Translations under genes and position numbers: made by a program
Assembly (NCBI GenBank): GCA_030149525.1
Contig: JASBRJ010000224.1
Span: forward strand, 1 to 39,482
Direction: 5' to 3'
DNA length: 39,482 nt
From: a bacterium
Lineage (GTDB): Bacteria; Vulcanimicrobiota; Xenobia; Xenobiales; JADMJV01
In this document: in pieces, positions 10,895 through 32,082 of the stretch
Layout of the letters: every line of letters starts with the position of its first letter
Position numbering within the stretch: the first letter of the stretch is position 1
The notes under the pieces: generated by a model
What the model was told of the DNA's origin: nothing
What the model saw: only the letters and a program-made list of their open reading frames with translations
Databases searched by the model: none

Positions 10895-10895
10895 G

Positions 10896-12413: not shown

Positions 12414-12781
12414 GGCAATTCGAGTTGAAGAAGCTTTACAACTTCCGTCAGCAGGGTCAACGGGCTGAACGGCTTAGTCAGGTAGCGATCGGCGCCGGCG
12501 TCCATACCGGCCTTCTCGTCATCCTCACCACTCCTCGCCGTGAGCAAGATGACGGGAGTATCACTGTCGGACTCTTTCAAGGTGCGGCAGACTTCCAACC
12601 CACTCATGGAGGGCAGCATCACGTCGAGAACGACAAGATCGGGTTTCTCTTGACGAGCAACATTGAGTGCACCCGGCCCGTCAGCCGCTTCCAATGTCCG
12701 AAAGCCTAGATCTTCAAGGGTGACACGCAGAACCTCTAGCACGTGAGGCTCGTCGTCGACGAGCAGAATTGTCTTGCTCAA
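12410..12781 (-). CDS. Single-domain response regulator (CheY-like)
   Basis: The gene encodes a 123-residue stand-alone receiver. The acid pocket is D9/D10 (LLVDDEP), the phospho-accepting Asp is D53 (VVLDVMLPSMSG), with T81 (LLTARSG) and K103 (YLTKPFSP). There is no DNA-binding or enzymatic output domain, so it must signal by protein contact, as CheY, PilG/PilH or RomR-type regulators do. The TTG start is supported by AGGGAG eight bases upstream. It lies between the Roadblock gene (15-base gap) and the kinase (4-base overlap), which suggests that its partner is a scaffold protein of the same operon. Confidence 0.94.
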   Translation of the reverse strand: MSKTILLVDDEPHVLEVLRVTLEDLGFRTLEAADGPGALNVARQEKPDLVVLDVMLPSMSGLEVCRTLKESDSDTPVILLTARSGEDDEKAGMDAGADRYLTKPFSPLTLLTEVVKLLQLELP

Positions 12782-12796
12782 TTTTAAGGCTCCCTA

Positions 12797-13156
12797 CTAA
12801 ATCGCAAGAAGCCGTTCGACGGCCCCGCGATTCTTACGAATTTCTAGTCGAACCCGCCCCAAGTTAGCACCTCCACCGGCCAGAACGACCAGGACGAAGT
12901 TGTCTCCTACCACTTCTGCTGTAATCTGTTTTTCGGCGAACTCCATGTACTGTTGAGTGAGGGGTGCCTTCCCCAGATCCTCGGCAATCTGCTGGCCGGC
13001 TTGAAGACTCCTGAGAATGACCTCCGCCAGAGGGTCGGTCTCTCTTTCGTCCACAAAGAACTTCTCGATAACGAAACCGTTAGAATCAAACACGGCGGCA
13101 CCGAACACATGGTCGAGGCGGCAGAAGTTCTCAAGAATTTGGTCAAGATCTGGCAC
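12797..13156 (-). CDS. Stand-alone Roadblock/LC7 protein (MglB-like)
   Basis: This 119-residue protein is a single Roadblock/LC7 domain: LDHVFGAAVFDSNGFVIEKFFVDERETDPLAEVI, then NFVLVVLAGGGANLGRVRLEIRKNRGAVERLL. Such proteins form dimers; MglB is the GTPase-activating partner of the polarity GTPase MglA. No Ras-like GTPase is in the window, so its partner is either elsewhere or is the second Roadblock protein of the operon. The GTG start has AGGAG five bases upstream that overlaps the end of the preceding gene. Assignment to the domain is firm, the MglB-like role is inference. Confidence 0.88.
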   Translation of the reverse strand: MPDLDQILENFCRLDHVFGAAVFDSNGFVIEKFFVDERETDPLAEVILRSLQAGQQIAEDLGKAPLTQQYMEFAEKQITAEVVGDNFVLVVLAGGGANLGRVRLEIRKNRGAVERLLAI

Positions 13157-13164
13157 AGCTACTC

Positions 13165-14091
13165 CTACAGCATGGGACGAACGTTCACGAGGTCACCCTC
13201 GCTGACGCTCATATCCTTGAGCATATTCGAGTGGACTTCCACTCGGTTTCCGAGACGACTGGATCCGGAGCGACACTTATACTTATGCATGCGTCCGTCG
13301 GCCGTTTCTAGTTCCACTTCAAATTGAGATTTAGGGTCAAGACCCCACTCTCGGAAAACCTCTTCCGAGAGCTTGACCTCTTCCGCAGAACGAAAGAGAG
13401 CCGAAGCTTTTTTTAGGGTGAGTTGTCGTATTCGACCCAGGTCTTCATTCACGGCTTGAGTCTTCTTTGCGATCTCCGCACTCTCCTCAGCTCGGATGAA
13501 GACCCTGGACCCGTTCTCGTGAACATGATCGAGAACGGCACTCACTTGAGCGGGACCGCAAACGATGTCTCCATAGCGAGTTGCGAATCTCTCCGTGACG
13601 ATGCTACCTTCATCGATCAATAAAAAAGCGAATCCATCGGGTCCAACCACTCGCATAAAACCGGTCTGTCGTTTATCTTCCAAGTCGCTCAATACGCGCT
13701 TGAGGCCTTTGCGCTCTATCCGACGATCGGGCATCGTTGTGGTGAAAGCGAAGGCCGAGCAAAAAATCGACACCATGCTTTCGGAGAGAACATAAACAGA
13801 AACCTCTACTGTCGAACGCTGATGCATCAAACCGTATATTCGCGCGGGAAGACGCGCCACCAATTGGCCCCTCGACGTCGACTCAAGCGCCCGCAGAATA
13901 TTGCCGTCCCTCAAGATGAAATAGCCGGTGATGGAAGACAGACGCAACTGTACCAATCCTGCAAAGCGATCGGCCAGAAGGTTCTCAAGCATGATCTCCA
14001 CGTCCGGGACAGGGAGACTCATGGAATCGATGAGCGGATTCCCAACCGGCAACAATTGGTCTGAAACTGAGCTAAGGGAAGTCTTGACCAC
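13165..14091 (-). CDS. DUF4388/PATAN-like regulatory protein
   Basis: The protein has 308 residues and is soluble. Two similar segments, about residues 30-95 (LLADRFAGLVQLRLSSITGYFILRDGNIL) and 127-190 (LEDKRQTGFMRVVGPDGFAFLLIDEGSIV), follow the DUF4388 pattern in which a small beta domain ends in a dG-x-I/L-V turn. Residues of about 205-245 may be helical, and the last 60 residues (LGNRVEVHSNMLKDMSVSEGDLVNVRP) resemble a small beta-barrel end. DUF4388 is often found beside Roadblock proteins and GTPases in polarity and motility modules. It starts with GTG six bases after the preceding stop, with GAAGG about ten bases upstream. The family call is by eye. Confidence 0.7.
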   Translation of the reverse strand: MVKTSLSSVSDQLLPVGNPLIDSMSLPVPDVEIMLENLLADRFAGLVQLRLSSITGYFILRDGNILRALESTSRGQLVARLPARIYGLMHQRSTVEVSVYVLSESMVSIFCSAFAFTTTMPDRRIERKGLKRVLSDLEDKRQTGFMRVVGPDGFAFLLIDEGSIVTERFATRYGDIVCGPAQVSAVLDHVHENGSRVFIRAEESAEIAKKTQAVNEDLGRIRQLTLKKASALFRSAEEVKLSEEVFREWGLDPKSQFEVELETADGRMHKYKCRSGSSRLGNRVEVHSNMLKDMSVSEGDLVNVRPML

Positions 14092-14097
14092 TTATGA

Positions 14098-15630
14098 TTA
14101 ACCTTCCGTCTTTGGCTGCGGCGGTGGTGGTGTTTGACCAGACCCTTGCGAGAAGTCTAGAGAAATCGTTCTTCCGGCTTCGCCGTCAAATTGGAAGCCG
14201 CCACCGAAGTCACCGCCTCCGCCCTGCTTTTGCTGACCCATTGAGGGAAGCTGAAAAGACGGCGGCGATCCTGCCTGGCCACTTCCGAACATATCGGTGA
14301 GCGGGAGAGTGCTGGAGGGGTCGTCGAATCCTGAACTATCGAAGGGGTTGGCTCCGCCTCCTCCGGGCATGGAAAAGCCGGGCGCTCCACCTGCCCCTGC
14401 GGCAGGCTTGCTCTCCTGACCACCGGGCAGCTTGAAGGACGGCGGTCCCTCTCCCGACGGAGGAGGCTGAGAACCAGGCAAAGAGAAGGCTGAAGTGGGC
14501 GCGTCGGAGCCACCTGATCCGGGCAACTGGAAAGCCGATGTAGGAGCATCAGATCCGCCTGACCCGGGCAACTGGAAGGCCGAAGTCGGCGCATCGGTAC
14601 CGGCTGTTCCCGGGATCTTGAATCCGGGCGAATCACCGGGGCCTGGCTCAGGTTGCTGGCTGCCGGGCAAGGAGAAGGAAGGCGGCCCGCCACCTAGCTT
14701 CGATGTGGGGTCCGGGCTCGCTGGAATTCCCGTTTCAGAGAAAGCCGAACCGAGCGAAATTCGTCCCGAATCTTGGGTGGGAGGCGCGTCGAAAGGCGAG
14801 TCCCCTGGACCTCCGGTGGTCCGTTTCAAAAGAGCTTCCCAGGCTTCCGAGGAGGCCGAGCCGTCGGGGGCGTTCTGAGGCGACGAAGGCGCGCCGCCTC
14901 CGAGCGAAGCCCCCGGAGGCGGGCTGAATTCACCACTGCTACCAGAGGAGGGAGGCATTTGGAAGGCTCCCGCTGTGGGTGTCTCGCTAGGTGTTCCGCC
15001 GGCAGGAGGCGCGAACCCGGGGTTCGGCTCTTGCTCTGTCGAGGGCGGAGGGGAAGAATCGCCAAAGGAAGCTGCTTCCGGCTCTCCGGCGCGAACTCTC
15101 TGCAGGAGGTCTGCCCAACCACCACTGCTGCCCGCATCGGGCGGTGTAAAAGCAACTGTAGAATCTGCCGGCTGCGCGCCACCAACAGCGGCGGCACCGG
15201 CTCCAGAAGAGGCGAACGGATTGTCGGCCGGCGGAGGCGGAGGAGGCGGAGCCGATCCTCCGCTAGGCGGCGGAGTTGATGCCGCTGCGGGGGGCGGCGG
15301 CGGGGGCGGCGGTGGAGCGAAAGAGCGACTCGAAGGAGCTTCTACAGACGTTAAAGATCCGCTCGCCGGTGCGGCTGCACTCGACTTCTTCTTGGCGGCT
15401 GCCGCGGCAAGTTTGGCAATATCAAGCGAGGAGCGTGAAGCCCGTTTTTGCTCGACGACTTCCCACACGACCAGTGCCACAAAGAAGCCGAGCAGCCCGA
15501 TCAATCCCTTCAGCAACAACCCTTCAAAGGGCGCCAAAGCTTTAGCCAGGTTCGCGGCCGCGCCTGTTTCGGCTTGTGCAGCGCCCGTCAGGGCGCCCAA
15601 CCAAAGCAACGCAACGTGCTTGGTACGCAT
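14098..15630 (-). CDS. Membrane-anchored Pro/Gly-rich repeat protein
   Basis: From ATG 15630 it has 510 residues. A signal-like N-terminus (MRTKHVALLWLGALTGAAQA) is followed by a hydrophobic segment near residues 38-57 (LLLKGLIGLLGFFVALVVW). The rest is low-complexity Pro/Gly/Ser with two long proline runs. At least nine short motifs of the form F-x-[LIM]-P are present (SAFQLPGS, SAFSLPGS, PSFKLPGG, PGFSMPGG and others), three of them in an exact 15-residue tandem repeat. If the second segment is a membrane anchor, the tail would be cytoplasmic and could recruit operon partners. The frame is also open from ATG 15666, two bases after the previous stop. I prefer 15630 because it begins a canonical signal peptide. 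No family recognised. Confidence 0.75.
   Translation of the reverse strand: MRTKHVALLWLGALTGAAQAETGAAANLAKALAPFEGLLLKGLIGLLGFFVALVVWEVVEQKRASRSSLDIAKLAAAAAKKKSSAAAPASGSLTSVEAPSSRSFAPPPPPPPPPAAASTPPPSGGSAPPPPPPPADNPFASSGAGAAAVGGAQPADSTVAFTPPDAGSSGGWADLLQRVRAGEPEAASFGDSSPPPSTEQEPNPGFAPPAGGTPSETPTAGAFQMPPSSGSSGEFSPPPGASLGGGAPSSPQNAPDGSASSEAWEALLKRTTGGPGDSPFDAPPTQDSGRISLGSAFSETGIPASPDPTSKLGGGPPSFSLPGSQQPEPGPGDSPGFKIPGTAGTDAPTSAFQLPGSGGSDAPTSAFQLPGSGGSDAPTSAFSLPGSQPPPSGEGPPSFKLPGGQESKPAAGAGGAPGFSMPGGGGANPFDSSGFDDPSSTLPLTDMFGSGQAGSPPSFQLPSMGQQKQGGGGDFGGGFQFDGEAGRTISLDFSQGSGQTPPPPQPKTEG
14474..14598 (-). repeat. 45-bp tandem repeat coding for a 15-residue unit
   Basis: Nearly three tandem copies of a 45-base unit encode DAPTSAFQLPGSGGS-type repeats within the Pro/Gly-rich membrane protein. 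Differences between copies fall mostly at third codon positions, so the protein sequence is being kept. Confidence 0.8.
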
Positions 15631-15668
15631 TCCTTTTTCCCACCAATGAATTCTAAAATTAACCATAT

Positions 15669-18600
15669 CTACGCTTCCGGACCCTGCATCTTCTCCATCA
15701 AGACTTCGATTCGTGAGGCCACATCCCTATAACGGATGTCGATTACATAACATTCTTGGAAAGCTGCGAGGGCTGCCTTCATCTGACCCATCTCTTCCAG
15801 GGTACAGGCAAGGTTAAAACGCAACTCCAAGAAATCCTCGTCTCGGAAGCCCGGTTGTTCCAGGGCCCTTTGAAATTGTTTGACCGCCAACTGCGGGTAT
15901 CCCTTTTGTCGAAAACACTCAGCCAGACAATTAGTTGCGGTCAAATACTTATTGCCGTCGGCCGAGGCTAGCAAGAACTCTCGAATAGCTTCTTCCAAAA
16001 AGCCCATTTGCCGGAAAAACTGTCCGAGTCGAATGTGACTCGTGGCCTCTCCTTGAGTGAAAGAGGTGGCAGACTTGTATTCCGTTATGATTCGGCTCAC
16101 GAGACCCTTGCTGAAAATCTGCTTCGCCACATCAGCGGCCTCTTCTAAACGCCCCTCTCGGGCATAGATAATGGCCACCCGAGAGAGAGAGTCCGGTCGG
16201 CCGGGCTCGAGGTCCAACACCTGTCGATAGAAAGGCCGTGCCTCTTCGAACAAACTCTGCTCAAAAAGCAGGTCGCCCAACTTCTCCAAGTAGTAGGGGT
16301 TCCCGTCGGCTCGTACGAGCAACTCGTCCATCAGTCCGCGAGACTCTTCCAAGCCCTTATGGGTAATAGAAGCACCCGCTAGCTCGAACAGGATAGCGAT
16401 ACCGATGTCGTCCAGCCCAACCTGACCGGCTTTTTCCACCGCATCGCGATACGCCTGAAGCCCTTCGTCGACTTCATTGTAGCTGACCAGAGTTTCCGCC
16501 ATGGAGCGATATAACTCGACAGCATCCTCGGTGCGACCCAAACCTTCCAACAATTGCGTCCGTTTACGCTTTACAATGAGCGCCATACGGCCACGCTCGG
16601 AGCGGAACAGATCGGCTTCCAACTCCTCCATACGGTCGAGTCCGGAGGCCAGTTCTCCACTGGAGACGAGGCTTTGAACCAACTTGTCCAAGGTCCGGGT
16701 GGCTTCGTCCGTACTTCCGTGTAGCAGGTAGCTCTTCGTTATCTCGTAATACTGCTCGTTAGCCTCGGCCTGGCGATTCATCCGAATGAGCAGATCCGCT
16801 GTTCTATCGCGATACTCAAGTGAGGTTTGCCACTGCTCATTGTGCTCAAACGACTCGCTGAGTTGCATCAGAATTCGGAGCATCCGCTCCTGCTCGTTTT
16901 TGCTCTCCGCATCTCTGAAGAGTTCCTCTAACAGAGCCTGACCTTGCTCCAAGAAGCCCGCTCTCAAAAACAGGCCGCCGAGGCTTTGTCGCAACTCCAG
17001 ATTGAGCGGCTGTAGATTGATGATCTCTTTCACACATTCTTGAGCTTCATCAACCTCACCCCGTTCGAGATGAATCGACATTAGCGAACGATAGTGTTCA
17101 GTGGCTTCCTCGAAACGCAGGTTGCGAATCAAAAGACGAATGGCCTGTCGGCGATGCTCCACATCCTTGGGGTCAAGTTCAAGGATTCGGTCGAGTACTT
17201 TATGTGCGACCTCCGGCAAATTCTCGTCCAGGTAGACCTTAGCGAGAGTCGCGAACTGCTCCAGGGCCTGAGCGGTCTGACCCTGCTCCGCCCACAAGTG
17301 GCCCAGTTTAAATCGGGCGTTGTAGTCGGTGGGGTCCATGTCCACCATGCGACTGTACACGTCGACTGCAGAAGTCACGTTACGCTCCTGGTTGAAGCGT
17401 CCCGCAAGAACAAGCATACCCTCTCTGGCTCTTTCGGTCTGCCCTTGAGCCGCCATTTCCTGGGAGAGACGGAGTCGAATTTCTGAGTCGGCCGGTTGAT
17501 AGGCCAGAATTTCGCGATAAAGGCGCTCGGCTTCCACATGATCGCCCTGAGCGGAAGCGGACTCCGCCATGCTGTAAATGTGCTGTCGAGCTCTCGCCAG
17601 ATCTCCCGAGTCGAGATAGTTGTGAACCAGACCGTCGAGGTACTGCTTCTTCTCCTCCATATCGTCGGGCATGAGATCCACTACATCCCGAACTCGATCC
17701 AACTGACCGAGGGTCAGATATTTCTGAGTCAGCAGACGAAGGAAAGATCTCTTTTCGGGGTCGTCCTCGGAGAGCGCAGTGATATCTCGCTCAGCTTCCT
17801 CGAAGCGATTGGCGTTAAGATAGGCTTGGATAATACGGCGATGGTAGCGAGGACGGATCTCGTCGTCTTTATCGAGCTGTCCCACCTCTTGAGCCGCCCG
17901 GTCGATATCTCCAGAAGAGAGGTAGGCCTCAATGAGCTGACCCATGTAGGAGTTCCGAAGCGGGTCTCCTTCGGCCAATCGATAAATCTCACGCCCCGCC
18001 CCTTCCAGAGCTCCCTGGGCGAGGTAGGCACCGATCAGACGGCTCACGAACCCGGACTTGGACTCGTCTTCGGAGGGGAGGCGACCGACCTCCTCGGAGG
18101 CCTCATCGAGCCTATTCGCTTCCAAATAAGAAGCGATCAAACGTCGTTGAAAGGAGAGCCTCAAAGGATCGTCTTCGGGCAAACGATGGATGGTCTCACC
18201 GGCTTGCTGAAGATCTCCCTTTGCCAGAGGAATCTCCAGGAGCCTTGTGACCAGTGAATTTCGCTCCCTATCAGAGCGCGGAATCTGAGGCAGCCCTTCA
18301 AAAGCTTTCTCTAGATTGCCCGCGTCGAGATAGAGCTTCACCAATTCTTTGCGGAAAAGGACGCGCTTTTCGTTGTCGTCGGGCAGAGCTTCCAGTTCGC
18401 GCTCGGCGTGTTCCAGTCGACGCCGTTCCATATTGAGAACGATGAGTCTGATCCTAAGCTCTAGGACCTCCTCGTCGTCGCTGGGAAGAACGGAGACCTG
18501 GCGAGAACTCTCGTCCAAGCGGTTTGTCCGCAATAGCAAGTCGATAACTTTCTTTCGAATATCGACTCGCTGCGGATCCAACTGAAGAATTCGGGCATAG

Positions 18601-20048
18601 GTGTGGATAGCCGGATCGAACTGTTTGAGATCGGTGAGGATTTCAGCCTTATAGATAAGCGCTTTATCATCATTAGGTTTCTGGGCAATCACCCGATCAA
18701 TCTCTTGGAGCGCCCCCTCCAGATCGTTCTTGTCCCGCAGCGAGAGAGCCACCTGATAAACAAGGTCCTGGGCCTGCGGAAAAAACTTGACCATGCGTTG
18801 CTGAGCTTCCAGAGCGGCCTGCTCGTTACCGGAGGCTTTATGGAGTTTGACGATCTGCTGGAACGTCTCCATGGCCTCGTACTGCATGTCTTTTTTGCGA
18901 TAGATCTCACCCAGAAGTTCCCGGGCCGGAATGTTGCTCCGATCAAGTTCTAGCAAACGTCGAAGAGACTTGACCGCCTCATCCAACATGCCTCGCTCGA
19001 TGTTGCCGTTAGCCAGTTGGAGATAATGGGGAGCGACGTCCTCTTTTCGGCCCACCGACAAGAGATGGTCAACCAGTCGCTTACGAATATTGATATTCGT
19101 GGGGTTACGCTCCAGAACGCTTTCGTAGATCTCGATCAGTTTATCGATGGCCCAACGAGCGTTAGGGTCCCACGAGACCACTGTCTCGTAGATATTGATG
19201 ACTTTATCAAGAGGCTTGTTGTCGGCATAGAGACCGGCAAGCTTCCGGTAGGTTTCGACAGCCTCGGATATCCGATCTTGCTTCGCGTAAAGGTCACCCA
19301 GGGCATGAATGATGTCTCGATTATCCGGCTCCAGATCGAGGATGCGATGATAAGCCCGGGTGGCATCGGCCAGAAGATCCTTCTTGACATACATGTCGGC
19401 GGCGTGCTGAAACCATACCTTGGTATTCTGTACGCTTCGACCTTTCTTGCGCGCGAAGATTTCCCCCAGCATCTCATAGGCGTGAGCAGCCTCTTGAGGG
19501 GCGAGACGGGAAACCTCCTGGAACTGGTCGATGGCTTCTTTGTCCATGCCCAGGTTCATGTAGGCTTTGCCCAACGACATGTGAGCTTCCCAGCGCCCCG
19601 GCCCCAATTCGATGCTCTTGCGGAGGTACTGGACAGCTTGATCCACCTCGTTGCGCTGCAGGAAGTAACGCCCGATTTGGAGGCAGACTTCCGGCTTCAC
19701 CCGCTTCACCGACTCTTTGACCTGATCGATCTCATCGGCCCCTCGCAGGGTCGGCCCTTGGTTCTCTACCGTTTCCTCTAGTCGAAGAACCTCTCGATAG
19801 CGATCCACAGCAGCGTCAAGATCGCCTTGACGCCGGAAAATCTCAGCACACTCCATGTGCTGGTGGATGACTTCCGACCACACCCCACTCTTCAAGGAGA
19901 GGGCAATGATGTACCCTCGCACATCGAGGTTATGGGGATCCCTTTTTAACGCCTCTTGATAGGCCTCAATAGCCTCTTCAAGCCGCCCTTGATTGGCCAG
20001 CGCATTTGCCGTGTCCAGCCAATTGGATGTTCGACCGCTATCGCTCAA
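15669..20048 (-). CDS. Giant TPR scaffold protein
   Basis: The protein has 1459 residues and is almost entirely tetratricopeptide repeats, with no signal peptide or membrane segment. Canonical TPRs fill residues 1-500 and 830-1459. Between about 519 and 825 there are nine uninterrupted 34-residue units of a distinct type (pattern LPxDDPxR..F..RLI.AYL..G.LD.A). The last 70 residues (LELRFNLACTLEEMG then FQECYVIDIRYRDVASRIE) are clearly paralogous to the C-terminus of the 1839-residue protein next door. The TTG start is fixed by GGAGGA six bases upstream. TPR superhelices hold protein partners, so a scaffold role is likely. The partner is not known. Confidence 0.9.
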   Translation of the reverse strand: MSDSGRTSNWLDTANALANQGRLEEAIEAYQEALKRDPHNLDVRGYIIALSLKSGVWSEVIHQHMECAEIFRRQGDLDAAVDRYREVLRLEETVENQGPTLRGADEIDQVKESVKRVKPEVCLQIGRYFLQRNEVDQAVQYLRKSIELGPGRWEAHMSLGKAYMNLGMDKEAIDQFQEVSRLAPQEAAHAYEMLGEIFARKKGRSVQNTKVWFQHAADMYVKKDLLADATRAYHRILDLEPDNRDIIHALGDLYAKQDRISEAVETYRKLAGLYADNKPLDKVINIYETVVSWDPNARWAIDKLIEIYESVLERNPTNINIRKRLVDHLLSVGRKEDVAPHYLQLANGNIERGMLDEAVKSLRRLLELDRSNIPARELLGEIYRKKDMQYEAMETFQQIVKLHKASGNEQAALEAQQRMVKFFPQAQDLVYQVALSLRDKNDLEGALQEIDRVIAQKPNDDKALIYKAEILTDLKQFDPAIHTYARILQLDPQRVDIRKKVIDLLLRTNRLDESSRQVSVLPSDDEEVLELRIRLIVLNMERRRLEHAERELEALPDDNEKRVLFRKELVKLYLDAGNLEKAFEGLPQIPRSDRERNSLVTRLLEIPLAKGDLQQAGETIHRLPEDDPLRLSFQRRLIASYLEANRLDEASEEVGRLPSEDESKSGFVSRLIGAYLAQGALEGAGREIYRLAEGDPLRNSYMGQLIEAYLSSGDIDRAAQEVGQLDKDDEIRPRYHRRIIQAYLNANRFEEAERDITALSEDDPEKRSFLRLLTQKYLTLGQLDRVRDVVDLMPDDMEEKKQYLDGLVHNYLDSGDLARARQHIYSMAESASAQGDHVEAERLYREILAYQPADSEIRLRLSQEMAAQGQTERAREGMLVLAGRFNQERNVTSAVDVYSRMVDMDPTDYNARFKLGHLWAEQGQTAQALEQFATLAKVYLDENLPEVAHKVLDRILELDPKDVEHRRQAIRLLIRNLRFEEATEHYRSLMSIHLERGEVDEAQECVKEIINLQPLNLELRQSLGGLFLRAGFLEQGQALLEELFRDAESKNEQERMLRILMQLSESFEHNEQWQTSLEYRDRTADLLIRMNRQAEANEQYYEITKSYLLHGSTDEATRTLDKLVQSLVSSGELASGLDRMEELEADLFRSERGRMALIVKRKRTQLLEGLGRTEDAVELYRSMAETLVSYNEVDEGLQAYRDAVEKAGQVGLDDIGIAILFELAGASITHKGLEESRGLMDELLVRADGNPYYLEKLGDLLFEQSLFEEARPFYRQVLDLEPGRPDSLSRVAIIYAREGRLEEAADVAKQIFSKGLVSRIITEYKSATSFTQGEATSHIRLGQFFRQMGFLEEAIREFLLASADGNKYLTATNCLAECFRQKGYPQLAVKQFQRALEQPGFRDEDFLELRFNLACTLEEMGQMKAALAAFQECYVIDIRYRDVASRIEVLMEKMQGPEA
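17570..18495 (-). repeat. Nine tandem 34-residue TPR-variant repeats
   Basis: Within the 1459-residue TPR protein, nine successive 34-residue units share the pattern LPxDDPxRxxFxxRLIxAYLxxGxLDxAxxEI. The DNA copies have diverged but the period is exact in most units, which indicates an older protein-level duplication rather than recent slippage. Confidence 0.75.
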
Positions 20049-20069: not shown

Positions 20070-23000
20070 CTAAGAACCAGAACTTGCCAATTCGGTTTCA
20101 ATTTTTTCTATCCAACTGCGAACATCTCGGTAAGTGATATCAACGCGATAACACTCCTTGAAGTCGCTGAGGGCTTCGGACATCCGACCATTCTGATACT
20201 GAATCATGGCCAGATTGTAGCGCAATTCAAGATACGACTGTTCTGAATGCCCTCTTGTTTCGAGACCCTTCTTGAACTGCTTGATGGCAAGGTCCAGCAT
20301 GTTAAAGCCCTTCTTCTTAGCGAAGCATAGGCCCAGCATGTTGTAAGACAGCAATTCGTAGTCGGGATTTCTGCGTGTCTGCTGGAACTGCTCAATAGCG
20401 TGGTCCAGGTCGCCCAAGTGATAGCACAACTCTCCGTAGTTGAATCGAGCTTTCAGATCGGCAGGGTTACTTTCCACCTGGTCACGCAGGGTTGAAATCA
20501 CATTGTTCTTAATCGCAACACTCTCTCCACCGGCCTGCTCCAGCCGTTGCAGAACCTGGCCGGCTTCCGAAACTTGCTCCTGTTTGAGGAGAAGATCGAT
20601 GTACATGTTGACGGCGTCCAATCGCTCGGGAGCCATCTGGAACAACTTGCGCAACTGAGTGAGAGCAGCCATTTTGTCGTCGATCTTCTCGGCGTAGATC
20701 AGAGCCAATCTGTGCTGCAGGTCAACCTGGTTTTCTTCCAACTCCAGCGACTTATGAATCGCGTCAGCAGCCTCCTGGAAGCGGCCTCGAGACTCGTGCA
20801 GATCGGCTAGAGAAATCCAACGCGAGCGTGCGCTCTCTAAATCGCCGGCAAGACCGTAGAACTTGACCAGCCGCTCCTGCAACTCCACGTTCTCGGGATC
20901 CGCTTCCACCAGCCGACTGTAAAGCTCGATAGCCGTCTGGTGATCTCTTGTGTGGAGATAGTGCTCGGTGAGTGCTTCAGACTGCTGGAGAGCCGACTCA
21001 ACATTTCCGGAATCTAAGTAGGCATCGACCAGAAGACGCCGTGCAGTCTGGTCATCTGAGTTGAACTCCAACACCCCTTCATAGAGACGAATGGATGGCT
21101 CCAGCTCACCTTTAGCCTGATAAGCCTGAGCCAGTTTAAACTGTTGTTCCATGGCTTTGTCGTTCATACCGAGCTTCTTGTAAAGGTCTACCAGAGCACC
21201 TCGGTCGTCGAGAGCCTCGGGGTTGAGCTCTACGATACGCTCCGTCACCCTTGCAGCTTCCTCCCAGCGCTCCTCGTTCTGGTAGCGGCCGACAAGACTT
21301 TGAAAACTGGTTAGGGCCTTTTCCATATCGCCCTGACTCTCATAAATCTGTGCGAGTCGCTCTTCGAAAACGGGGTCGTTGGAGATCTCCAAGAGCTGCT
21401 CAAAGGCGGAGATGGCTTCCGACACCTCTCCTTTTGTCATGGCTGTCTCGGCGAGTTGACGCAAATGGTGAGCAGCCAATTTGCTCTCATCAAGAGTCGT
21501 AAAGACGGAAACAAGCACTTTACGAGCCTCGAAGTGATGGGAATCGAGCGAGAGAACGGACTGCAAGGTATCGAGAGCGTCGTGATGCTCCCCTCGCTTG
21601 AGGTGTAACTTCGCCAATTCTAAGAGGGAACCGCAAGCTTCTGAATAGTTCTCGGTCCAAAACTCGGCTTGAATGAGGCGATGCAATAGAGAAATGGACT
21701 CAGGATTTTTTCGCGCACACTGCCGATATTGCAACAGCGCATCCTCAAGCATGCCGTACTTCAAATGAATGTCGGCCAAACGGGTTCGCATCACCAGGTT
21801 TTCATGACTGTCTTCCAAGGCTTTCCGGTAGCCGGAAATCTTGGCGGCCACGTCGGCCTCGCGCAGGCTTTGATCTAGAAGATCTGCTTGCTCGATATCA
21901 CTTGCAGGCGACTCATCCTCAATGGAAAGAGACACCTTCGGCTTACCGAGAATATCAGGCCCTTCGGGCTCGGGTTCCGGCTCGGGTTCAGGCTCGGGCT
22001 CGGCTTCAAAAAGACCGGAATCTCCACTGTCAAAAAGAGCTTCGGCCTCGTCACCGGTTGGCTCAACAACGGTATCGAAGAGCCCTCCACCCTCCTCGTC
22101 GACTGCGGGAGAGACGGCCTCGGGAAGCACCTCCTCAGCCCTTGCTTGCTCTGCGGCTTCACGAGCAATGTCTTCTTCAGACTTGGGAAGAGTCAACTCC
22201 AATAGCTTCATAAATTCCGGAGAATCAGCCTCCTGATCCTCAGGAACTTCCACGACTCTGGCTCTTTCCTCGGCCAGCAACTGATCCATGGTGACGCCGT
22301 CGCCTTGCTGCTCGACAGCGGGAGACGACACGGGCTCTTCCGTGAAAAGGTCTCCACCATCCTCAAAGAGGCCGGAATCCATCTCCGCCTGAGGCGAAAC
22401 AGGAGACTCAAGGGCCGCCGGTGGATCGCCAGGCATGGGCAAATCCAGCCCTAGCGGCTCGGCTGCAACAACTTCCGCCGACTCAGCGGCCGGCTCATCG
22501 AACAACCCGCTTCCGGAGGAAAAGTCTTCGAAGTCGTCCTCTTTCACGGCCACCGCGGGCTCGTCGAACAAGCCAGCCGCGGCTTCCTCCTGTATGGGAG
22601 ACTCGTCGAAGAGACCACCGGAAGAGGCCGGCTCGGGAATATCAAACAGGTCCCCGGCATCACTCTCTGCTGGAAAATCGCCTTGCTCCACCGGCTCAAT
22701 GTCATCGAAGAGACCTCCGCCACCGAACTCGTCGGAGGAAACGGGTTCCGATTCGGTTTCGACTTCTCCGAAAAGATCGCCCCCATCGGAACTCTCCAGA
22801 ATCGAATCCTCTAGAGGCGAAGCGGTAGAAAAAAGATCGTCTGCCTCACTGGCCTCGTCAGATCCTGACGGCGCATCATCGAACCCGTCAAAAAGACCAG
22901 CAGCAGAGTCAGACTCCTCCTCGGCAGCCGGCACTGGTTCGGGGGCAGAAAAGAGGTCGAAGGGCTCGGGCTCCTCCTGAGAGGGGGCCGCAAATTCTTC

Positions 23001-25589
23001 TGAGCCGAAATCGGACCCACTCTCCGGCTCCCCGAACAGGTCGCCGCCGCCGAACAAGTCGTCGCCGTCGTTACTTTCCTCAAACAAACCTGCGGATTCC
23101 GAGGGGCTATCTTCAAAAAGTGAGCCGCCGGAATCATCCCCAAAGAGGTCGGAGGCATCGTCGCCCGCCGGGCTCTCACTAACCGGCTCACTATCGCCGA
23201 AAAGGTCGCCCCCACCAAACAGGTCGTCATCTGAGGTCGCCTCGCTAGAAGGCTCCGGCGCCTCGGCTGAGGGGAAGAGGTCTTCCCCAAAAAGATCACC
23301 GCCTTCGGCTTCGCTCCCCCCTCCTCCAAACAAGCTTTCCTCCGCGGCTGCCTCCTGGGGCTCATCGGAAAGTTCCAGATCGGTGGAGAAAAGGTCATCC
23401 ACGCCTCCCGCCTCTTCGGCGGGGGCCTCAGAGAAGAGAGAGTCAAAGGCGGAATCTTCCTCCGGCACAGGTTGCTCGGCGGTCGGGGCGGCGTCACCGA
23501 AAAGGTCATCGCCTGCGACGGACCCACCGATGGTATCGGAACTCACTCCGTTATCGTCAAAAAGATTGTCGAACTGATCGTTGTCGCCGAACAGATCCTC
23601 TTCCTCGGATGGAGAGGCCTTGGAATCCCTCTCCATCATAGTGGCCCCGGAAGGCTCTTCTAAAGCGGAAAAAAGATCTTCTCCAGCGGACTCTTCGGCG
23701 TCATTAAAAAGGCTCCCGGCCTCCGACTCCCCTTCGTCTCCAAAGAGATCGCCTGCCGGTTCCGGATCGCCGAAAAGGTCGCCTTCGCCGCCGCCCATAC
23801 CGAAGATATCTCCATCCTCGCCGGGGCTGTCCTCGTCGTCGAAGACCATACCGAACTCATCATCCATATTGAAGTCCGAGTCGCCTCCCTGTGCTCCAAT
23901 GGTGGAGGCGTTCGCTTCCGGCGCGGAGTCATCAGGGTCGAAGAGCGAATCGGCGAATCCCTCATCGAAAGGTGAGTCCACATCGTCCGTGTCGTCAAAC
24001 AACTCATTGGCGGCCGAGGCTATTTGATTTTCTAAGCCGATGGATGCTGCCGAAGGGTTAGAGTCGGATTCCGAGCTATCGAACACGGACTCCACCAGGT
24101 TGTCGTCTTCTTCATGCATGGCGGTTGCGGGCTCGGAATGACCCGAATCGGAGCCACTGTCACCTCCTCGGCGACGGCTCAGGGTGGGCTTCATACCGAG
24201 CATCGGCTTATCTCCACCTGGACCTTTCATGCCAAGACCGGGACGTCTGAGCCCCGCCCGGGGAGAACCACCACTCCCCCCTAACGTAGGCTTGCCGCCC
24301 AGCATCGGCTTTCCGCCGCCGCCGCCGGGACCGGCACCGGGGCTTACTAAACCTTTCCGCAAGCCCATTCCACCGCCCACAAGGCCTTTTCTCCGACCGC
24401 CCGGAGCACTGCTGCCTGACTTTAATTTACTAGGAGGCTTACTCGCCTTTTCGGGCTCCGGCTCCGGCTCATTGGCAGGCGGGGGCATCTCGCCAAGGTC
24501 GGCGGACACGGGGCTCGCTTCGGGAGTAGGAGCCTCTTCTTCTGGTGGCGTTGGTGGCAAAGGAGGTTGAAACTCCAAGGGCTCCAGAGGGGCACCGAGA
24601 TTGGTCAGCCCTTGCTGCGCTTGCCCGTTTCCACCGTCCACCCCCAGGACTATTTGAAAAATCTCTATAGCTTGGTCGCGCTCTTCTACCTCAAGATACG
24701 CCTGAGCGGCCTCAAGGAAATGCTGAACGGCTTCGTCCTGCTTGCCCATGGAGAGATTCAACTCTCCCAATTTTCTCATGGCGCGGGGCAGCTTGGGGTT
24801 ATTCTGAAGAACTTTATTGAAAGCGAGAAGCCCGCTTCGAAATCGGCCTTTTAGCTGACAGACGAGCCCCAACTCAAGGAGGGCATCTTGATGCTCGAGA
24901 TCGTGTCTTAGAACAGAGCGAAATTCTTGCTCTGCTTCATCCAACTTCCCCAATTCAGTGTAGAGTCGACCTAGGGTGAGAAGAACATCCGGGTCATCCG
25001 ATTGAACCACCTTCATGCGGCGATAGGCCTCGGCCGCTTTCGATATGTTCCCTACCTCTTGGAAAGCATTCGCGACCTTGCGGTACTGGTTGGCACCGTC
25101 TTGAATTTGCCCGTGGGACACGAACATCTCAGCCAATTCCAGAGAGATATCGAGATTCTCGGGCTGATCAGCCTGGGCTTCTTGAAGCAAACGAATGGAA
25201 CGATCGCCGTCTCCTTGCTCAATACAGAGACGGGCCAATTCACGCGCAAGATAGACAGCTCGGTCAACATTTCCGCGCTTTTTCTCTATCTCGATCCGTT
25301 TCTCTCGGGCCGCCTCACACTCAGGGTGAAGCGACAAAACTTTACTAATGACCTCTTCTGCCTCGGAGAGATCGTCTGATTCCACTAGGACGCCAATCAG
25401 ATCCACGTAGGTCTGAACGACGGAACGAAATTTCCCTCGAATAGCTTGGACATGAGCCAGTCGGCGATAAACGTTCGCCTCTGCTGGCTCACTTTGCTTA
25501 ATCTGCTCAAGCTGCTCTAATGCTTGATCCCAAGCACCGGAAGAAATCGAACTCTCGGCGTCTGCTAGGAGAGCGGTGGCTGAACTCAC
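20070..25589 (-). CDS. Giant TPR protein with long disordered acidic centre
   Basis: From GTG 25589 the protein has 1839 residues. Residues of about 1-325 are TPRs. Residues 330-385 are a Pro/Glu linker and 385-470 a basic Gly/Arg/Lys region (repeated KPMLG and KPTLG). About 475-1230 is an acidic disordered region with about 35 copies of an x-L-F motif, half of them DLF. About 1235-1839 is a second TPR array ending in SDFKECYRVDITYRDVRSWIE, paralogous to the neighbouring protein. The frame is open to 25622, but AAGGAGG lies inside that extension eight bases before GTG 25589, which sets the start. It is the first gene of the operon. A multivalent cytoplasmic scaffold is the best reading; no known family spans the whole protein. 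Confidence 0.88.
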   Translation of the reverse strand: MSSATALLADAESSISSGAWDQALEQLEQIKQSEPAEANVYRRLAHVQAIRGKFRSVVQTYVDLIGVLVESDDLSEAEEVISKVLSLHPECEAAREKRIEIEKKRGNVDRAVYLARELARLCIEQGDGDRSIRLLQEAQADQPENLDISLELAEMFVSHGQIQDGANQYRKVANAFQEVGNISKAAEAYRRMKVVQSDDPDVLLTLGRLYTELGKLDEAEQEFRSVLRHDLEHQDALLELGLVCQLKGRFRSGLLAFNKVLQNNPKLPRAMRKLGELNLSMGKQDEAVQHFLEAAQAYLEVEERDQAIEIFQIVLGVDGGNGQAQQGLTNLGAPLEPLEFQPPLPPTPPEEEAPTPEASPVSADLGEMPPPANEPEPEPEKASKPPSKLKSGSSAPGGRRKGLVGGGMGLRKGLVSPGAGPGGGGGKPMLGGKPTLGGSGGSPRAGLRRPGLGMKGPGGDKPMLGMKPTLSRRRGGDSGSDSGHSEPATAMHEEDDNLVESVFDSSESDSNPSAASIGLENQIASAANELFDDTDDVDSPFDEGFADSLFDPDDSAPEANASTIGAQGGDSDFNMDDEFGMVFDDEDSPGEDGDIFGMGGGEGDLFGDPEPAGDLFGDEGESEAGSLFNDAEESAGEDLFSALEEPSGATMMERDSKASPSEEEDLFGDNDQFDNLFDDNGVSSDTIGGSVAGDDLFGDAAPTAEQPVPEEDSAFDSLFSEAPAEEAGGVDDLFSTDLELSDEPQEAAAEESLFGGGGSEAEGGDLFGEDLFPSAEAPEPSSEATSDDDLFGGGDLFGDSEPVSESPAGDDASDLFGDDSGGSLFEDSPSESAGLFEESNDGDDLFGGGDLFGEPESGSDFGSEEFAAPSQEEPEPFDLFSAPEPVPAAEEESDSAAGLFDGFDDAPSGSDEASEADDLFSTASPLEDSILESSDGGDLFGEVETESEPVSSDEFGGGGLFDDIEPVEQGDFPAESDAGDLFDIPEPASSGGLFDESPIQEEAAAGLFDEPAVAVKEDDFEDFSSGSGLFDEPAAESAEVVAAEPLGLDLPMPGDPPAALESPVSPQAEMDSGLFEDGGDLFTEEPVSSPAVEQQGDGVTMDQLLAEERARVVEVPEDQEADSPEFMKLLELTLPKSEEDIAREAAEQARAEEVLPEAVSPAVDEEGGGLFDTVVEPTGDEAEALFDSGDSGLFEAEPEPEPEPEPEPEGPDILGKPKVSLSIEDESPASDIEQADLLDQSLREADVAAKISGYRKALEDSHENLVMRTRLADIHLKYGMLEDALLQYRQCARKNPESISLLHRLIQAEFWTENYSEACGSLLELAKLHLKRGEHHDALDTLQSVLSLDSHHFEARKVLVSVFTTLDESKLAAHHLRQLAETAMTKGEVSEAISAFEQLLEISNDPVFEERLAQIYESQGDMEKALTSFQSLVGRYQNEERWEEAARVTERIVELNPEALDDRGALVDLYKKLGMNDKAMEQQFKLAQAYQAKGELEPSIRLYEGVLEFNSDDQTARRLLVDAYLDSGNVESALQQSEALTEHYLHTRDHQTAIELYSRLVEADPENVELQERLVKFYGLAGDLESARSRWISLADLHESRGRFQEAADAIHKSLELEENQVDLQHRLALIYAEKIDDKMAALTQLRKLFQMAPERLDAVNMYIDLLLKQEQVSEAGQVLQRLEQAGGESVAIKNNVISTLRDQVESNPADLKARFNYGELCYHLGDLDHAIEQFQQTRRNPDYELLSYNMLGLCFAKKKGFNMLDLAIKQFKKGLETRGHSEQSYLELRYNLAMIQYQNGRMSEALSDFKECYRVDITYRDVRSWIEKIETELASSGS
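21960..22008 (-). repeat. Glu-Pro dipeptide repeat
   Basis: A hexanucleotide-like GGCTCGGGTTCC-type repeat on the plus strand encodes eight or so consecutive EP dipeptides near the end of the acidic region of the 1839-residue protein. Such a repeat makes a stiff extended spacer and is a likely site of length variation between strains. Confidence 0.8.
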
Positions 25590-25752
25590 TCCCAAAACCT
25601 CCTTGGGGACACTCACGCCCAAAAAATAGTGAACTTACTCGTAGACATTCAGTCTGAGTGCCCCCGGTTGTTTTCTCTGGGGAATTTGCGGCTCCTGCCG
25701 TGTAGCAACGCCGTGTCGCCCCACATGGGATAAATATCAGAAATGTTGCCAC

Positions 25753-25807: not shown

Positions 25808-27868
25808 TTATCGCATGATGTTGGGTGTCAACATCACAACAACTTCGTTGCGGCTCTTAGTGGTGGTCGTGCTGCGGAACAGAGTCCCCAGTACCGGCAG
25901 GTCTCCCAGCAACGGCACTTTCGAGACGTTTTGAATGTCGTTCTCGTTGATCAGACCACCGATGACCATTGTGTCACCGTCTTTGATTCGCATCGTGGTT
26001 TCGATGATACGTACAGCCGTACGAGGGTATTGGTTGTTTACCAACTCGACCAGAGTGCTTACCTCAGGTCGAACCTCACACATAACGTAGCCATCTGCTT
26101 TCACGGTACTGGTCACGTCGAGCTTCACACCGATGTCCACGTACTGTACCTGGAACTGTCCGGCGCGAGGGTCGAAGTACACAATCGGGAACTTGTCACC
26201 GATGTGAACAAGAGAGGCCTTGCCAGAGATTGACGCGATTCGAGGCGAAGCGAGAATCTTGGCTTCGTTCTGAGACACCAGAAAACTGATGTTCGCGCTA
26301 ATCGCCAAAGGCGATCTTGCAAAGCTTCCGATGGCCACAGGCACGTTCGGGAAGAGCGGCAAGACGTTGGCCGGGCTCGCGACGGGACCGTTGGGAGTCC
26401 GAACAATCTCCTGACCGACTGCGTACTCGTTAAAAACGGTGCTGACGGAGAAGGGAGCTTGGTTGGACCCCCAGGTAACGCCGAGGTTTTTGCTGCCGTT
26501 TTCAAGCAAGTCAACAACCTTGAGGTCGATCATCACCTGATCCAGAGGACGATCCAACTCAGCGAGCAGTTCACGAACCTGGTCGATTGCGCCAGGGGAG
26601 CCTTCGACAATCAGGAGATTCTGACGGGTATCGACATTGTACTGTACATCGGGAACAAGAGTTCCCAATAGAGCACGAAGCTCGCCAAGCTCTCCGTATT
26701 TCACGGGCAAGAACTCACGCAGCGGTGGCGGCGGAGGCTCAGGGACGCGGTCCAAGTTTCCGAGCTCACGCTTGATTTGCAGCAAGTCGTCTTTAGAACC
26801 GGTGGCATAGAAGCCGTTCATGGTCGGGTGAGGGGTGAACTTCACTCGATCATACTCACCCTTGAGAAACTCTACGACCTTGGCCGATTGAGCTTCTTCG
26901 AGCAAATACTCCATGCGTACGGCGTCTTCCGGAACTTCGCGAGTCTTAACCTGATCATCATCGAGGATGTTGTCGGCGACTTCGTCGAGCTTCTCCGGTG
27001 CAGCCACTACCACAGTGTTATAGCCGAGCAGTTTGTAGTCATACTCACTCTCCTGCATTTGGAGAATGAGAGCCATGGCACCCTCTACCGGGACGTTCTT
27101 CAACGTCACCGTGACGGAACCCGCAACCGTGGGGCCGACGTAGATGTTTTTGTTCATCTCTTTGGCCAGAACCTTGAGAACATAGACCAGGTCTGCGTTC
27201 ACGAAGTCCAAGGTTACGAGCTTCTGCTTAGGAGCAGCGCGCTTGGGAGCCTTACGAGCTCTCAGTGCTGATACCGGCGCCTTGCCTTCGCCATCGTAGG
27301 CGTAAGAGCGAGCGGGCGCTACAGCGCGCACCTGCATTTTAGGCTTGACACTGGGCTTCTGAGCGACACGAGGTGCCGGCTTATTGGCCATAGGTTTCTG
27401 AGCAGGAGCTGCCTGAGCCACTGACTCCGGGGCACTCTTCGTTTCCCCCGCAGCCATTTTATTGGCTTCGATAGCTACTGTGAGACCCTTTGAGTCTGCT
27501 GCAGTGACAACCTTAAACTCGGGCGGAGTGATAACGTCGACATAGATCCTAACAGTGTTCTCCGCATACTGTTTTACGCGAACTTTTTCAACGAGACCCT
27601 GATTGACGTCAGTCGAGGCAGGAACTCCATCTTTTAGTTTCGCGGGAAATACGTCTATTACAATAAATTTCTGGGGACTTGTCAGCACTTTCGAACGGTG
27701 CTGAACCCTTCCAGATGCTCCAACCTCAATATTGAGCATCTGGCCTTTTTGCGAGACCTTAACTCCAGTCACAGTAGACATCTGCTGTGACCAGGCCAGG
27801 CCCGTTAACAAGAGGGTTAAAACCCACACCGTCGTGGCGCGAAAGCCAACGTACCTAACATTTGGCAT
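25808..27868 (-). CDS. pilQ: Type IV pilus secretin with AMIN domain (PilQ-like)
   Basis: This 686-residue protein is the outer-membrane channel for the pilus. It has a signal peptide (TTVWVLTLLLTGLAWSQ), an AMIN-like domain at about 36-133 that in relatives binds peptidoglycan, and an Ala/Pro/Lys-rich linker. An STN-type domain follows (about 215-290, LDFVNADLVYVLKVLAKEMNKNIYV), then N-type secretin domains (about 315-460, including RQNLLIVEGSPGAIDQVRELLAELDRP). The secretin core occupies about 460-686 (SQNEAKILASPRIASISGKASLVHIGDKFP, GDTMVIGGLI, VPLLGDLPVLGTLFR). The ATG has GGGAGGTG about ten bases upstream. It is separated from pilM by a 230-base structured leader, and no pilN, pilO or pilP lies between. 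Confidence 0.94.
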   Translation of the reverse strand: MPNVRYVGFRATTVWVLTLLLTGLAWSQQMSTVTGVKVSQKGQMLNIEVGASGRVQHRSKVLTSPQKFIVIDVFPAKLKDGVPASTDVNQGLVEKVRVKQYAENTVRIYVDVITPPEFKVVTAADSKGLTVAIEANKMAAGETKSAPESVAQAAPAQKPMANKPAPRVAQKPSVKPKMQVRAVAPARSYAYDGEGKAPVSALRARKAPKRAAPKQKLVTLDFVNADLVYVLKVLAKEMNKNIYVGPTVAGSVTVTLKNVPVEGAMALILQMQESEYDYKLLGYNTVVVAAPEKLDEVADNILDDDQVKTREVPEDAVRMEYLLEEAQSAKVVEFLKGEYDRVKFTPHPTMNGFYATGSKDDLLQIKRELGNLDRVPEPPPPPLREFLPVKYGELGELRALLGTLVPDVQYNVDTRQNLLIVEGSPGAIDQVRELLAELDRPLDQVMIDLKVVDLLENGSKNLGVTWGSNQAPFSVSTVFNEYAVGQEIVRTPNGPVASPANVLPLFPNVPVAIGSFARSPLAISANISFLVSQNEAKILASPRIASISGKASLVHIGDKFPIVYFDPRAGQFQVQYVDIGVKLDVTSTVKADGYVMCEVRPEVSTLVELVNNQYPRTAVRIIETTMRIKDGDTMVIGGLINENDIQNVSKVPLLGDLPVLGTLFRSTTTTKSRNEVVVMLTPNIMR

Positions 27869-27900
27869 TTGCCAAACCCACCTCCCTTATAAAATCGAAC

Positions 27901-27995
27901 AGAAGTAATCTCTTCTTTCTAATCTGGCGGCTCCGGTTCCAACCGGTCCCGCACGACCTCGTCGGCGCTCCTGTTCCCCTTGCTTCTAATGAAGC
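27901..27995 (-). promoter_or_regulatory. Structured leader of the secretin gene
   Basis: The 230 bases between pilM and the secretin gene (27869-28098) contain no convincing ORF. Several perfect hairpins lie in a row on the transcript: GCTTC/GAAGC (27982-27995), CGAC/GTCG (27954-27964), a compound hairpin at 27927-27952 (GCGG, CCGGT, ACCGG and CCGC arms with a tandem G-A mismatch) and AGAAG/CTTCT (27901-27916). No known riboswitch consensus was recognised. Confidence 0.45.
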
Positions 27996-28098
27996 CCGGT
28001 GAATCAGAGGCATCCGGAGACAACCTCCACCATGAGCGTCAACAGTTCTCAAGCATGGATGGGATTCCTCCATGACAAAACCACAACCTCAAAACAGT

Positions 28099-29199
28099 CT
28101 ACTGAAGCGCCAACCCAAGCACCACCATGGACGCAGGGGCTAGTTCCCTCAATTCACTGCTCGTCATCCCTTTAACTTTAGAGAGGTTGAGATTGGAGAA
28201 CGGATCTGCAACAACACATTCCACCCCGAACTCCTTGGACAAATAGGATTCGATATTCTTGAATGCCGCAGTTCCACCGGACAATACAACAAGATCGATA
28301 CTCTCATCCTTATTTCTCGAGCGATAATAATCAATTGAGCGCTGGACTTCGGTTACAAAATCCTTAAGAACAGGCTCAACGAGATTAAAAATTTTCTGGG
28401 TCGTCGGAGCAACATCTTCTGCCCCTCCGTCGACTTTGATAACGCCTTTTTCCTTCTTGATCTTCTCAGCCTCATCGAAGGAAACATTCAGGCTTTGACC
28501 GATCGCCTTAGTAAAAGAGTTGCCGGCCACGGAAATTGTGCGGTTATGCTTTAAGCGACCCGCACTAAAAATATTGATAGAAGAGAACGAGGCACCACAG
28601 TTTACGAGCACAACCGTGCCGTTATACTGCTCCTCAGAAAGAAACAAGCGCAGCGCCCTTTGAAGAGCCAGCGGCTCCAGGTCGATCCCCGCAGGCTCGA
28701 CATCGGACATCTTGATAACCTCACGAGCCGCCTCTAGAATTTCATTAGGCACAGCTATCAAGAGAACTTCCATTTGGCGCCCGTCACCGATATCGGGGCT
28801 GATGATCTCTCCGGTCACATAGGCGTCGGCGACGGGGTACGGCAAATACCTCTCGGCTTCGAAGCGGATCGCCTGCTTTACCTCTTCCGGCTTCATTTTC
28901 GTCATGGGAATCGGCCGAATGACGACCTGCTGTCCCGACACAGCACTCAGCAATTTAAACTTCTGAGACTGGATATTGTTCGCTCGAAGAAGCCCGGCGA
29001 TCGTGTCGCCAAGCGTCTGCGCATCAAGGATAGAGCCATCTTTAATGGTCATGGGCGGAGTCGGTGCAACTGCAAAGTAAAGCAGCTCTGCTGGTCCCGA
29101 CTTTTTCTTTTCCACCACCGCAAGCTTAACGTGGCTGCTACCGATATCGATGGCACCCTGGTCGGGCGTTTTCTGAAATAGTCGTTTAAAAAAGTCCAC
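28099..29199 (-). CDS. pilM: Type IV pilus assembly protein PilM
   Basis: PilM is the actin-like cytoplasmic ATP-binding protein of the pilus alignment complex. At 366 residues it has normal length. Visible marks are the phosphate-1 motif AIDIGSSHVKLAVVE near residue 16, the segment EVKQAIRFEAERYLPYP, VLVNCGASFSSINIF, the TEVQRSIDYYRSR helix and the adenosine-type motif LVVLSGGTAAFKNIESYL. The GTG start has AGGGG about seven bases upstream. PilM normally binds the N-terminal tail of PilN, which is usually the next gene. Here the next gene is the secretin. Confidence 0.95.
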   Translation of the reverse strand: MDFFKRLFQKTPDQGAIDIGSSHVKLAVVEKKKSGPAELLYFAVAPTPPMTIKDGSILDAQTLGDTIAGLLRANNIQSQKFKLLSAVSGQQVVIRPIPMTKMKPEEVKQAIRFEAERYLPYPVADAYVTGEIISPDIGDGRQMEVLLIAVPNEILEAAREVIKMSDVEPAGIDLEPLALQRALRLFLSEEQYNGTVVLVNCGASFSSINIFSAGRLKHNRTISVAGNSFTKAIGQSLNVSFDEAEKIKKEKGVIKVDGGAEDVAPTTQKIFNLVEPVLKDFVTEVQRSIDYYRSRNKDESIDLVVLSGGTAAFKNIESYLSKEFGVECVVADPFSNLNLSKVKGMTSSELRELAPASMVVLGLALQ

Positions 29200-31974: not shown

Positions 31975-31980
31975 CTGACC

Positions 31981-32010
31981 CTTTGCGTCTCTGCGTCTTT
32001 GCGTCTCTGC
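31981..32010 (-). repeat. GCGTCT/GCGTCTTT short tandem repeat
   Basis: A 30-base run of alternating GCGTCTTT and GCGTCTCT units (on the minus strand, GACGCAAA and GACGCAGA) lies directly in front of the sigma-factor start. Similar strings are widely scattered in some environmental genomes as short intergenic repeats, which supports this stretch being non-coding. Confidence 0.7.
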
Positions 32011-32055
32011 TTCACCAGCCAAACTCTCCGACACGGGAAAGTCGTACGAGCGAAA

Positions 32056-32082
32056 CAAAAAAGGAACGGTGTAACCCGTTCC
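32056..32082 (-). terminator. Terminator after pilC
   Basis: GGAACGG (32063-32069) and CCGTTCC (32076-32082) form a perfect 7-bp stem with a 6-base loop, followed on the minus strand by six T. It ends the pilB-pilT-pilC unit and implies a separate promoter for the sigma gene. Confidence 0.88.

Follow-up and report, generated by a model that had tools for sequence, protein, structure and literature searches.

The window, by which we mean the whole stretch of 39,482 nucleotides that was analysed, contains a type IV pilus gene context in which pilM and pilQ are followed by genes for two TPR proteins, TPR1 and TPR2, and then by protein X (X522), Y308, a Roadblock protein and a response-regulator receiver (Table 1); pilB, pilT and pilC also belong to this context. 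The TPR1 reading frame, 20070..25622 (-), encodes 1850 amino acids from a TTG at 25622 or 1839 from a GTG at 25589, and the GTG is preferred because it fits homology better, the orthologues beginning to align at residue ~12-17. Two TPR arrays enclose a linker (residues 346-1255), and the stretch at 21900-24440 singled out by the initial annotation corresponds to TPR1 residues ~395-1241. An acidic disordered region lying between TPR arrays, preceded by a basic Gly/Arg/Lys patch, had been described there, and both were found, the patch at residues 401-493.

Table 1. Position of TPR1, its parts and the neighbouring genes in the window.
Feature	Coordinates	Strand	Basis
TPR1 (TPR - basic patch - acidic LF-rich linker - TPR)	20070..25589	(-)	ORF, Pfam TPR
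N-terminal TPR array, residues 12-345	24588..25589	(-)	AF2 pLDDT >90 over most of 12-350
Basic Gly/Lys/Arg patch, residues 401-493, [KR]PxL/[KR]GL/RPGL array	24144..24422	(-)	motif count, AF2 pLDDT <50
Acidic disordered linker, residues 501-1230	21933..24122	(-)	composition, FoldIndex, AF2
Span of 35 LF stickers (18 DLF), residues 541-1205	22008..24002	(-)	motif count
SLSIEDES motif ahead of C-terminal TPRs	21909..21932	(-)	alignment; relatives S[FL][SA]VESE
C-terminal TPR array, residues 1256-1850	20073..21857	(-)	AF2 pLDDT mostly >88
PilM	28099..29199	(-)	Pfam PilM_2
PilQ secretin (AMIN, secretin N domains)	25808..27868	(-)	Pfam; adjoins TPR1 in several families
TPR2, 1459-aa pure TPR protein	15669..20048	(-)	Pfam, synteny
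X522 (protein X): N-terminal membrane anchor, then disordered Pro/Gly/Ser/Phe tail	14098..15666	(-)	hydropathy, motifs
Y308, DUF4388 (PATAN)-like	13165..14091	(-)	weak match below cut-off; synteny
MglB-like Roadblock/LC7 protein	12800..13168	(-)	PF03259 at 12878-13144, 42 bits, over cut-off; synteny
Response-regulator receiver (CheY-like) ORF	12413..12793	(-)	translation; syntenic orthologues

AF2 models of parts of TPR1, each run with 8-11 sequences, gave confident helical arrays at residues 12-~350 and ~1240-1848, and the Pfam TPR matches together with this helical superhelix fold place TPR1 among the TPR proteins. Searches with the arrays in Foldseek returned the TPR superhelices of OGT, Ctr9 and Ski3; these are generic superhelices matched at low TM-scores, and therefore no functional reading was taken from them. 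No TM segment is present in TPR1, where no hydrophobic window exceeds 1.6, or in TPR2, and for this reason both proteins are most likely cytoplasmic. Of 148 genomes of the phylum, 29 have a conserved N-terminal array (E<=1e-20), and the C-terminal array is the best-conserved part of TPR1, being 52% identical to its counterparts in other genera of the order. TPR2 is the constant partner gene in orthologous loci where the contig allows, and the order pilM-(pilN, O, P where present)-pilQ-TPR1-TPR2-X-Y308-Roadblock-receiver recurs, with losses. Thus TPR1 combines a TPR fold with conservation across the phylum and a syntenic position between pilQ and TPR2.

Some of the neighbouring genes are of interest in their own right. 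Between pilM and pilQ (27868-28099) pilN, pilO and pilP are absent; relatives in family f3 have them (L038:814-3267), and the sole PilN match of the genome lies on another contig (G000:C370), as is also the case in the sister genus g2. A Sigma-70 family factor gene (31168-32058) is placed within the pilus cluster, between pilC and a pilin-like gene. Protein X gave no match to Pfam or NCBIfam. Its anchor reaches a KD value of 2.4 at residue 49 and its tail carries the motifs GGWADLLQRV, EAWEALLKRT and GRTISLDF; in the orthologues [DE]P[FW]xxLL and RTISLDL motifs are conserved from family f1 to the distant f13 and f14. Because of these conserved short linear motifs we regard X as a candidate TPR ligand, and its [DE]P[FW]xxLL may be at least as good a candidate for that role as LF. 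A further TPR protein at 8654-10957 (TPR8654) has a 422-residue acidic disordered middle (NCPR -0.24) and a C-terminal part that is Roadblock/longin-like in look (a weak MAPKK1_Int match) and syntenic with Roadblock-receiver genes in relatives.

The acidic part of the TPR1 linker is extreme in composition. Its 730 residues (501-1230) include 219 D/E (30%), only 11 K/R and 53 F, with zero Y, W or C, and the net charge is -208. Disorder prediction had been proposed for this region, and it bore out the expectation: FoldIndex is -0.22, and the modelled parts of the linker, three LF among them, were disordered in AF2, with pLDDT <50 at residues 363-500 and 31-41 at residues 1165-1231, the call for residues 501-1139 being one of composition. 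No solved structures resembling the linker were found.

Within this chain LF is strongly over-represented. The initial annotation had estimated about 35 x-L-F motifs, about 18 of them DLF, and the linker contains exactly 35 LF and 18 DLF (with 12 LFG and 11 LFD), the first at residue 541 and the last at 1204; 10,000 shuffles of residues 501-1230 gave a mean of 3.9 and a maximum of 12. To call the stickers regular was an overstatement, since they are irregularly spaced (mean 19.5 residues, CV 0.81), with 20% of random placements equally even, and even spacing was rejected. The Leu codons of the 35 copies are CTT15/CTC10/TTG6/CTG4 and the Phe codons TTT18/TTC17. Third-position identity is 0.33 (Leu) and 0.49 (Phe), near background, the flanks are also at background, and sequence information around LF is limited to positions -3 to +3. 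Because the codons are scrambled across copies the array is not a DNA repeat; a tandem array or slippage at the DNA level was rejected as its source on the mixed codons and on TRF, which reported only trivial arrays in the region. These observations support the view that the LF core has been retained at the protein level within the TPR1 gene. No other protein with a DLF array was found in the same genome, nor were DLF arrays found in plasmids.

The phylum to which the window belongs contains orthologues of TPR1, with named records under Eremiobacterota, UBP9, CPR1 and similar. They retain both TPR arrays, the basic patch with its [KR]PxL/[KR]GL motifs, and a linker of acidic character. The linker itself is unalignable across orthologues, the shared order being the basic patch and then the acidic chain, and in this it resembles its equivalents in other bacterial organisers of poles and pili (FimV/HubP, the middle region of SgmX), whose disordered regions evolve too fast for alignment. 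Linker length ranges over ~220-1350 aa, and each of the 16 linkers measured was acidic after the patch (NCPR -0.10 to -0.31). Motif counts are minima in several genomes where the end of the linker is the end of the contig; the contigs of G002, G006 and G009 terminate within it. The patch motifs number 7 in the window protein against 1.1 in shuffles and recur in most orthologues, across families, although the [KR]PxL expression was designed after viewing the sequences, so that its P values are optimistic. Judged by this recurrence, the basic patch is better conserved than LF among the linker motifs. Also conserved, within the order, is an S[FL][SA]VESE-like motif before the C-terminal array.

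Conservation of LF across the orthologues, which had been anticipated for a functional motif, was not observed; most of them carry another repeated aromatic instead (DPF, FG, W, Y or EY). In the sister genus g2 the linker contains 89-94 PF, mainly as DPFA or DPFG. DFG/QSSF occurs in family f2, together with a Trp-rich stretch that has a second basic patch; in f3 there are Tyr repeats or a small number of LFAGP, in f11 SPFGGFG/PAFGE, in f13 EYAEE and in f14 scattered F. The linker of orthologue L039 is rich in Tyr, Gly and Gln. Aromatic stickers are not universal, because several orthologues have few aromatics or a short linker (L044, L046, L047 and L050-L052); L038 and L041 are likewise aromatic-poor, with five LF of which four are LFA. 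On a tree of the C-terminal array the sticker types fall in separate lineages. Family f15 (L104-L107) departs further, as its pilQ-adjacent TPR protein has an Ala-rich, Pro/Gly-poor linker of 172-797 aa that is not of the acidic aromatic kind. A heptad test on three long f15 linkers gave z of only 1.0-1.8, and for this reason 'helix-like' or 'coiled-coil-like' is here a statement about composition; such a linker would fit a function in self-association or reach.

Comparison of two g2 species (L035 and L037) proved informative about selection on the motif cores. Their DPF core positions are 94% identical against 63% for the spacers, and there is ample synonymous change in the Phe codons of DPF. 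Alignment bias was rejected as the cause, since 30 simulated unconstrained divergences, realigned in the same way, gave 66% for cores and 65% for spacers with a maximum difference of 7 points. The earlier prediction that cores would be conserved while spacers drift therefore holds within the sister genus and fails between genera, where the motif differs, and both can be true because the motif is exchanged between lineages. For DPF in g2 this sequence comparison shows stickers kept by selection as a class and not as one sequence; we infer the same for LF from its scrambled codons and from the recurrence of the sticker class. In another record of this gene (L036:4964-6099, G004:C27) a frame shift lies inside the DPF array, and may be an assembly error or a real mutation.

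Two bacterial systems are similar in plan. SgmX, a cytoplasmic protein of the type IV pilus system, has TPR blocks at its N- and C-terminus, and the region between them contains no known domain (PMC7519303). This Myxococcus xanthus protein (Bd2492 in Bdellovibrio) shares with TPR1 the TPR blocks at both ends, the non-domain middle and the lack of a signal or TM segment; at 1060 aa it is shorter than the 1839 aa of TPR1. The partner of SgmX is a Ras-like GTPase, for which the Roadblock protein MglB serves as GAP; SgmX binds MglA-GTP and promotes polar localisation of PilB, whereas the TPR1 operon has a Roadblock gene but no MglA gene: none was found in the operon or the window, and elsewhere there were weak Arf-family matches only. 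Identity with SgmX was rejected, as the NCBIfam model NF052243 scored 39.8 bits with TPR1 and 110.8 with TPR2 against a cut-off of 1800. FimV/HubP, for their part, have a long, fast-evolving acidic cytoplasmic region that domain swaps suggest sets species-specific function (PMC12918733). TPR1 shares with them an extended acidic region plus TPR, but they have a periplasmic LysM-like domain and a TM segment; among the best 25 of 38 Pfam matches to TPR1, all of repeat type, there was no LysM domain. FimV was also rejected as an identity, with FimV_Cterm (TIGR03504) at 25.7 bits against a cut-off of 30.65 and lying within the N-terminal TPRs. On these comparisons TPR1 resembles SgmX and FimV/HubP in logic, is a member of neither, and appears to be a new variant of pilus or polar organiser scaffolds.

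We give an even chance to the reading of TPR1 as a soluble scaffold protein that serves the type IV pilus machine from the cytoplasm, its TPR arrays docking while multivalent aromatic stickers recruit or cross-link partners. The two arrays would act as specific docking platforms, and the basic patch and long acidic chain between them would carry many weak aromatic stickers, here LF. The chain could make many weak, exchangeable contacts with a client bearing a hydrophobic pocket or, through its charge and aromatics, with basic partners, for example the patch of TPR1 itself. In this way pilus proteins and the membrane-anchored X may be concentrated or cross-linked at the pilus base, possibly under the control of the Roadblock, receiver and kinase proteins of the operon.

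The multivalent or phase-separating scaffold first proposed survives in part: the LF excess and the DPF cores speak for stickers and spacers, but a homotypic phase is doubtful at a net charge of -208. That TPR1 phase-separates alone through cohering LF, in the manner of FG nucleoporins, seems to us quite improbable. Nup98 with its GLFG repeats does resemble TPR1 in having many short hydrophobic-aromatic motifs in a disordered chain, and DLFG and DLFS are near to GLFG; moreover, Nup98 phases tolerate a change of GLFG to GLFS (PMC9918544), and TPR1 has DLFG, DLFS and GLFD motifs. Sticker density, about 1 per 19.5 residues in the TPR1 linker and up to 1 per 9 in relatives, is compatible with such cohesion, although that of the window protein is below the 1 per 12 of Nup98. 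However, cohesive FG domains require charge-depleted spacers, which the TPR1 linker does not have, and a GLFG domain no longer phase-separated once each repeat carried one Asp (PMC9918544); a homotypic phase is disfavoured because here there are about six acidic residues per LF. FG nucleoporins also have no sequence relation to TPR1, which belongs to the bacterial cytoplasm. FUS-type prion-like domains offer another comparison, being fast-evolving disordered domains with aromatic stickers and selection on phase behaviour (PMC7947763). The L039 linker is of a similar style, but the TPR1 family is acidic, has no RNA-binding domain and swaps F, Y and W motifs by lineage. A heterotypic mode, with the basic patch or with a basic or pocket-bearing partner, would suit the charge pattern better than FG-type self-cohesion.

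It is also possible, but in our view unlikely, that the grooves of the TPR arrays in TPR1 or TPR2 bind the LF (or DPF) peptides, leading to intramolecular closure or a head-to-tail network. Stickers and TPRs do lie in the same gene and operon, and the [DE]P[FW]xxLL of X resembles the DPF stickers, such that one groove could read both. On the other hand, the three nearest LF did not dock on the C-terminal TPRs in one AF2 single-chain model (11 sequences, a weak test), and these TPRs are ~50% identical between genera with different stickers (LF, PF, FG), which is hard to reconcile with a specific groove; in f3 the TPRs are more divergent and the stickers that they face are of the Y type. Similarly improbable is a linker that serves only as an entropic spacer, setting the reach between TPR platforms, with its repeats as by-products of slippage and without sticker function. 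The wide variation in linker length, the turnover of motifs and the Ala-rich replacement in f15 would all be expected of a spacer, but the scrambled codons of the LF cores, the DPF cores of g2 that exceed their spacers in conservation, and the several convergences of an acidic chain on aromatic motifs would not; TPR8654, encoded in this gene cluster as well, has an acidic linker without LF in which aromatics make up 2.4%.

Returning to the scaffold reading, the TPR1 linker is probably a scaffold with many handles, which are freely exchanged in evolution. More tentatively, and with somewhat less than even confidence, we suggest that throughout the phylum selection on these pilus scaffolds holds the arrangement of many aromatic stickers between two TPR platforms, with the sticker itself changing completely from genus to genus (LF, DPF, FG, W, Y, EY) and giving way to a helix-like rod in one family. 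Because related genera have rebuilt the linker with different aromatics while keeping the same folded domains and operon, the question of motif or composition could be addressed by swapping natural linkers. If true, these genera would provide a natural mutational series for the requirements of a pilus-base condensate or cross-linked hub, and this in a group with an MglB-like Roadblock protein in the same operon. There is a practical warning as well, in that conservation among orthologues as the sole criterion would have thrown out a real feature.

The same genome holds a fast-evolving paralogue of TPR1 (L042:4270-8511, G000:C5), in the linker of which there are six LF, five of them LFP, against 1.4 expected. 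Its gene adjoins those for a hybrid histidine kinase with a PilJ domain and a PilC homologue, both assigned from Pfam only.
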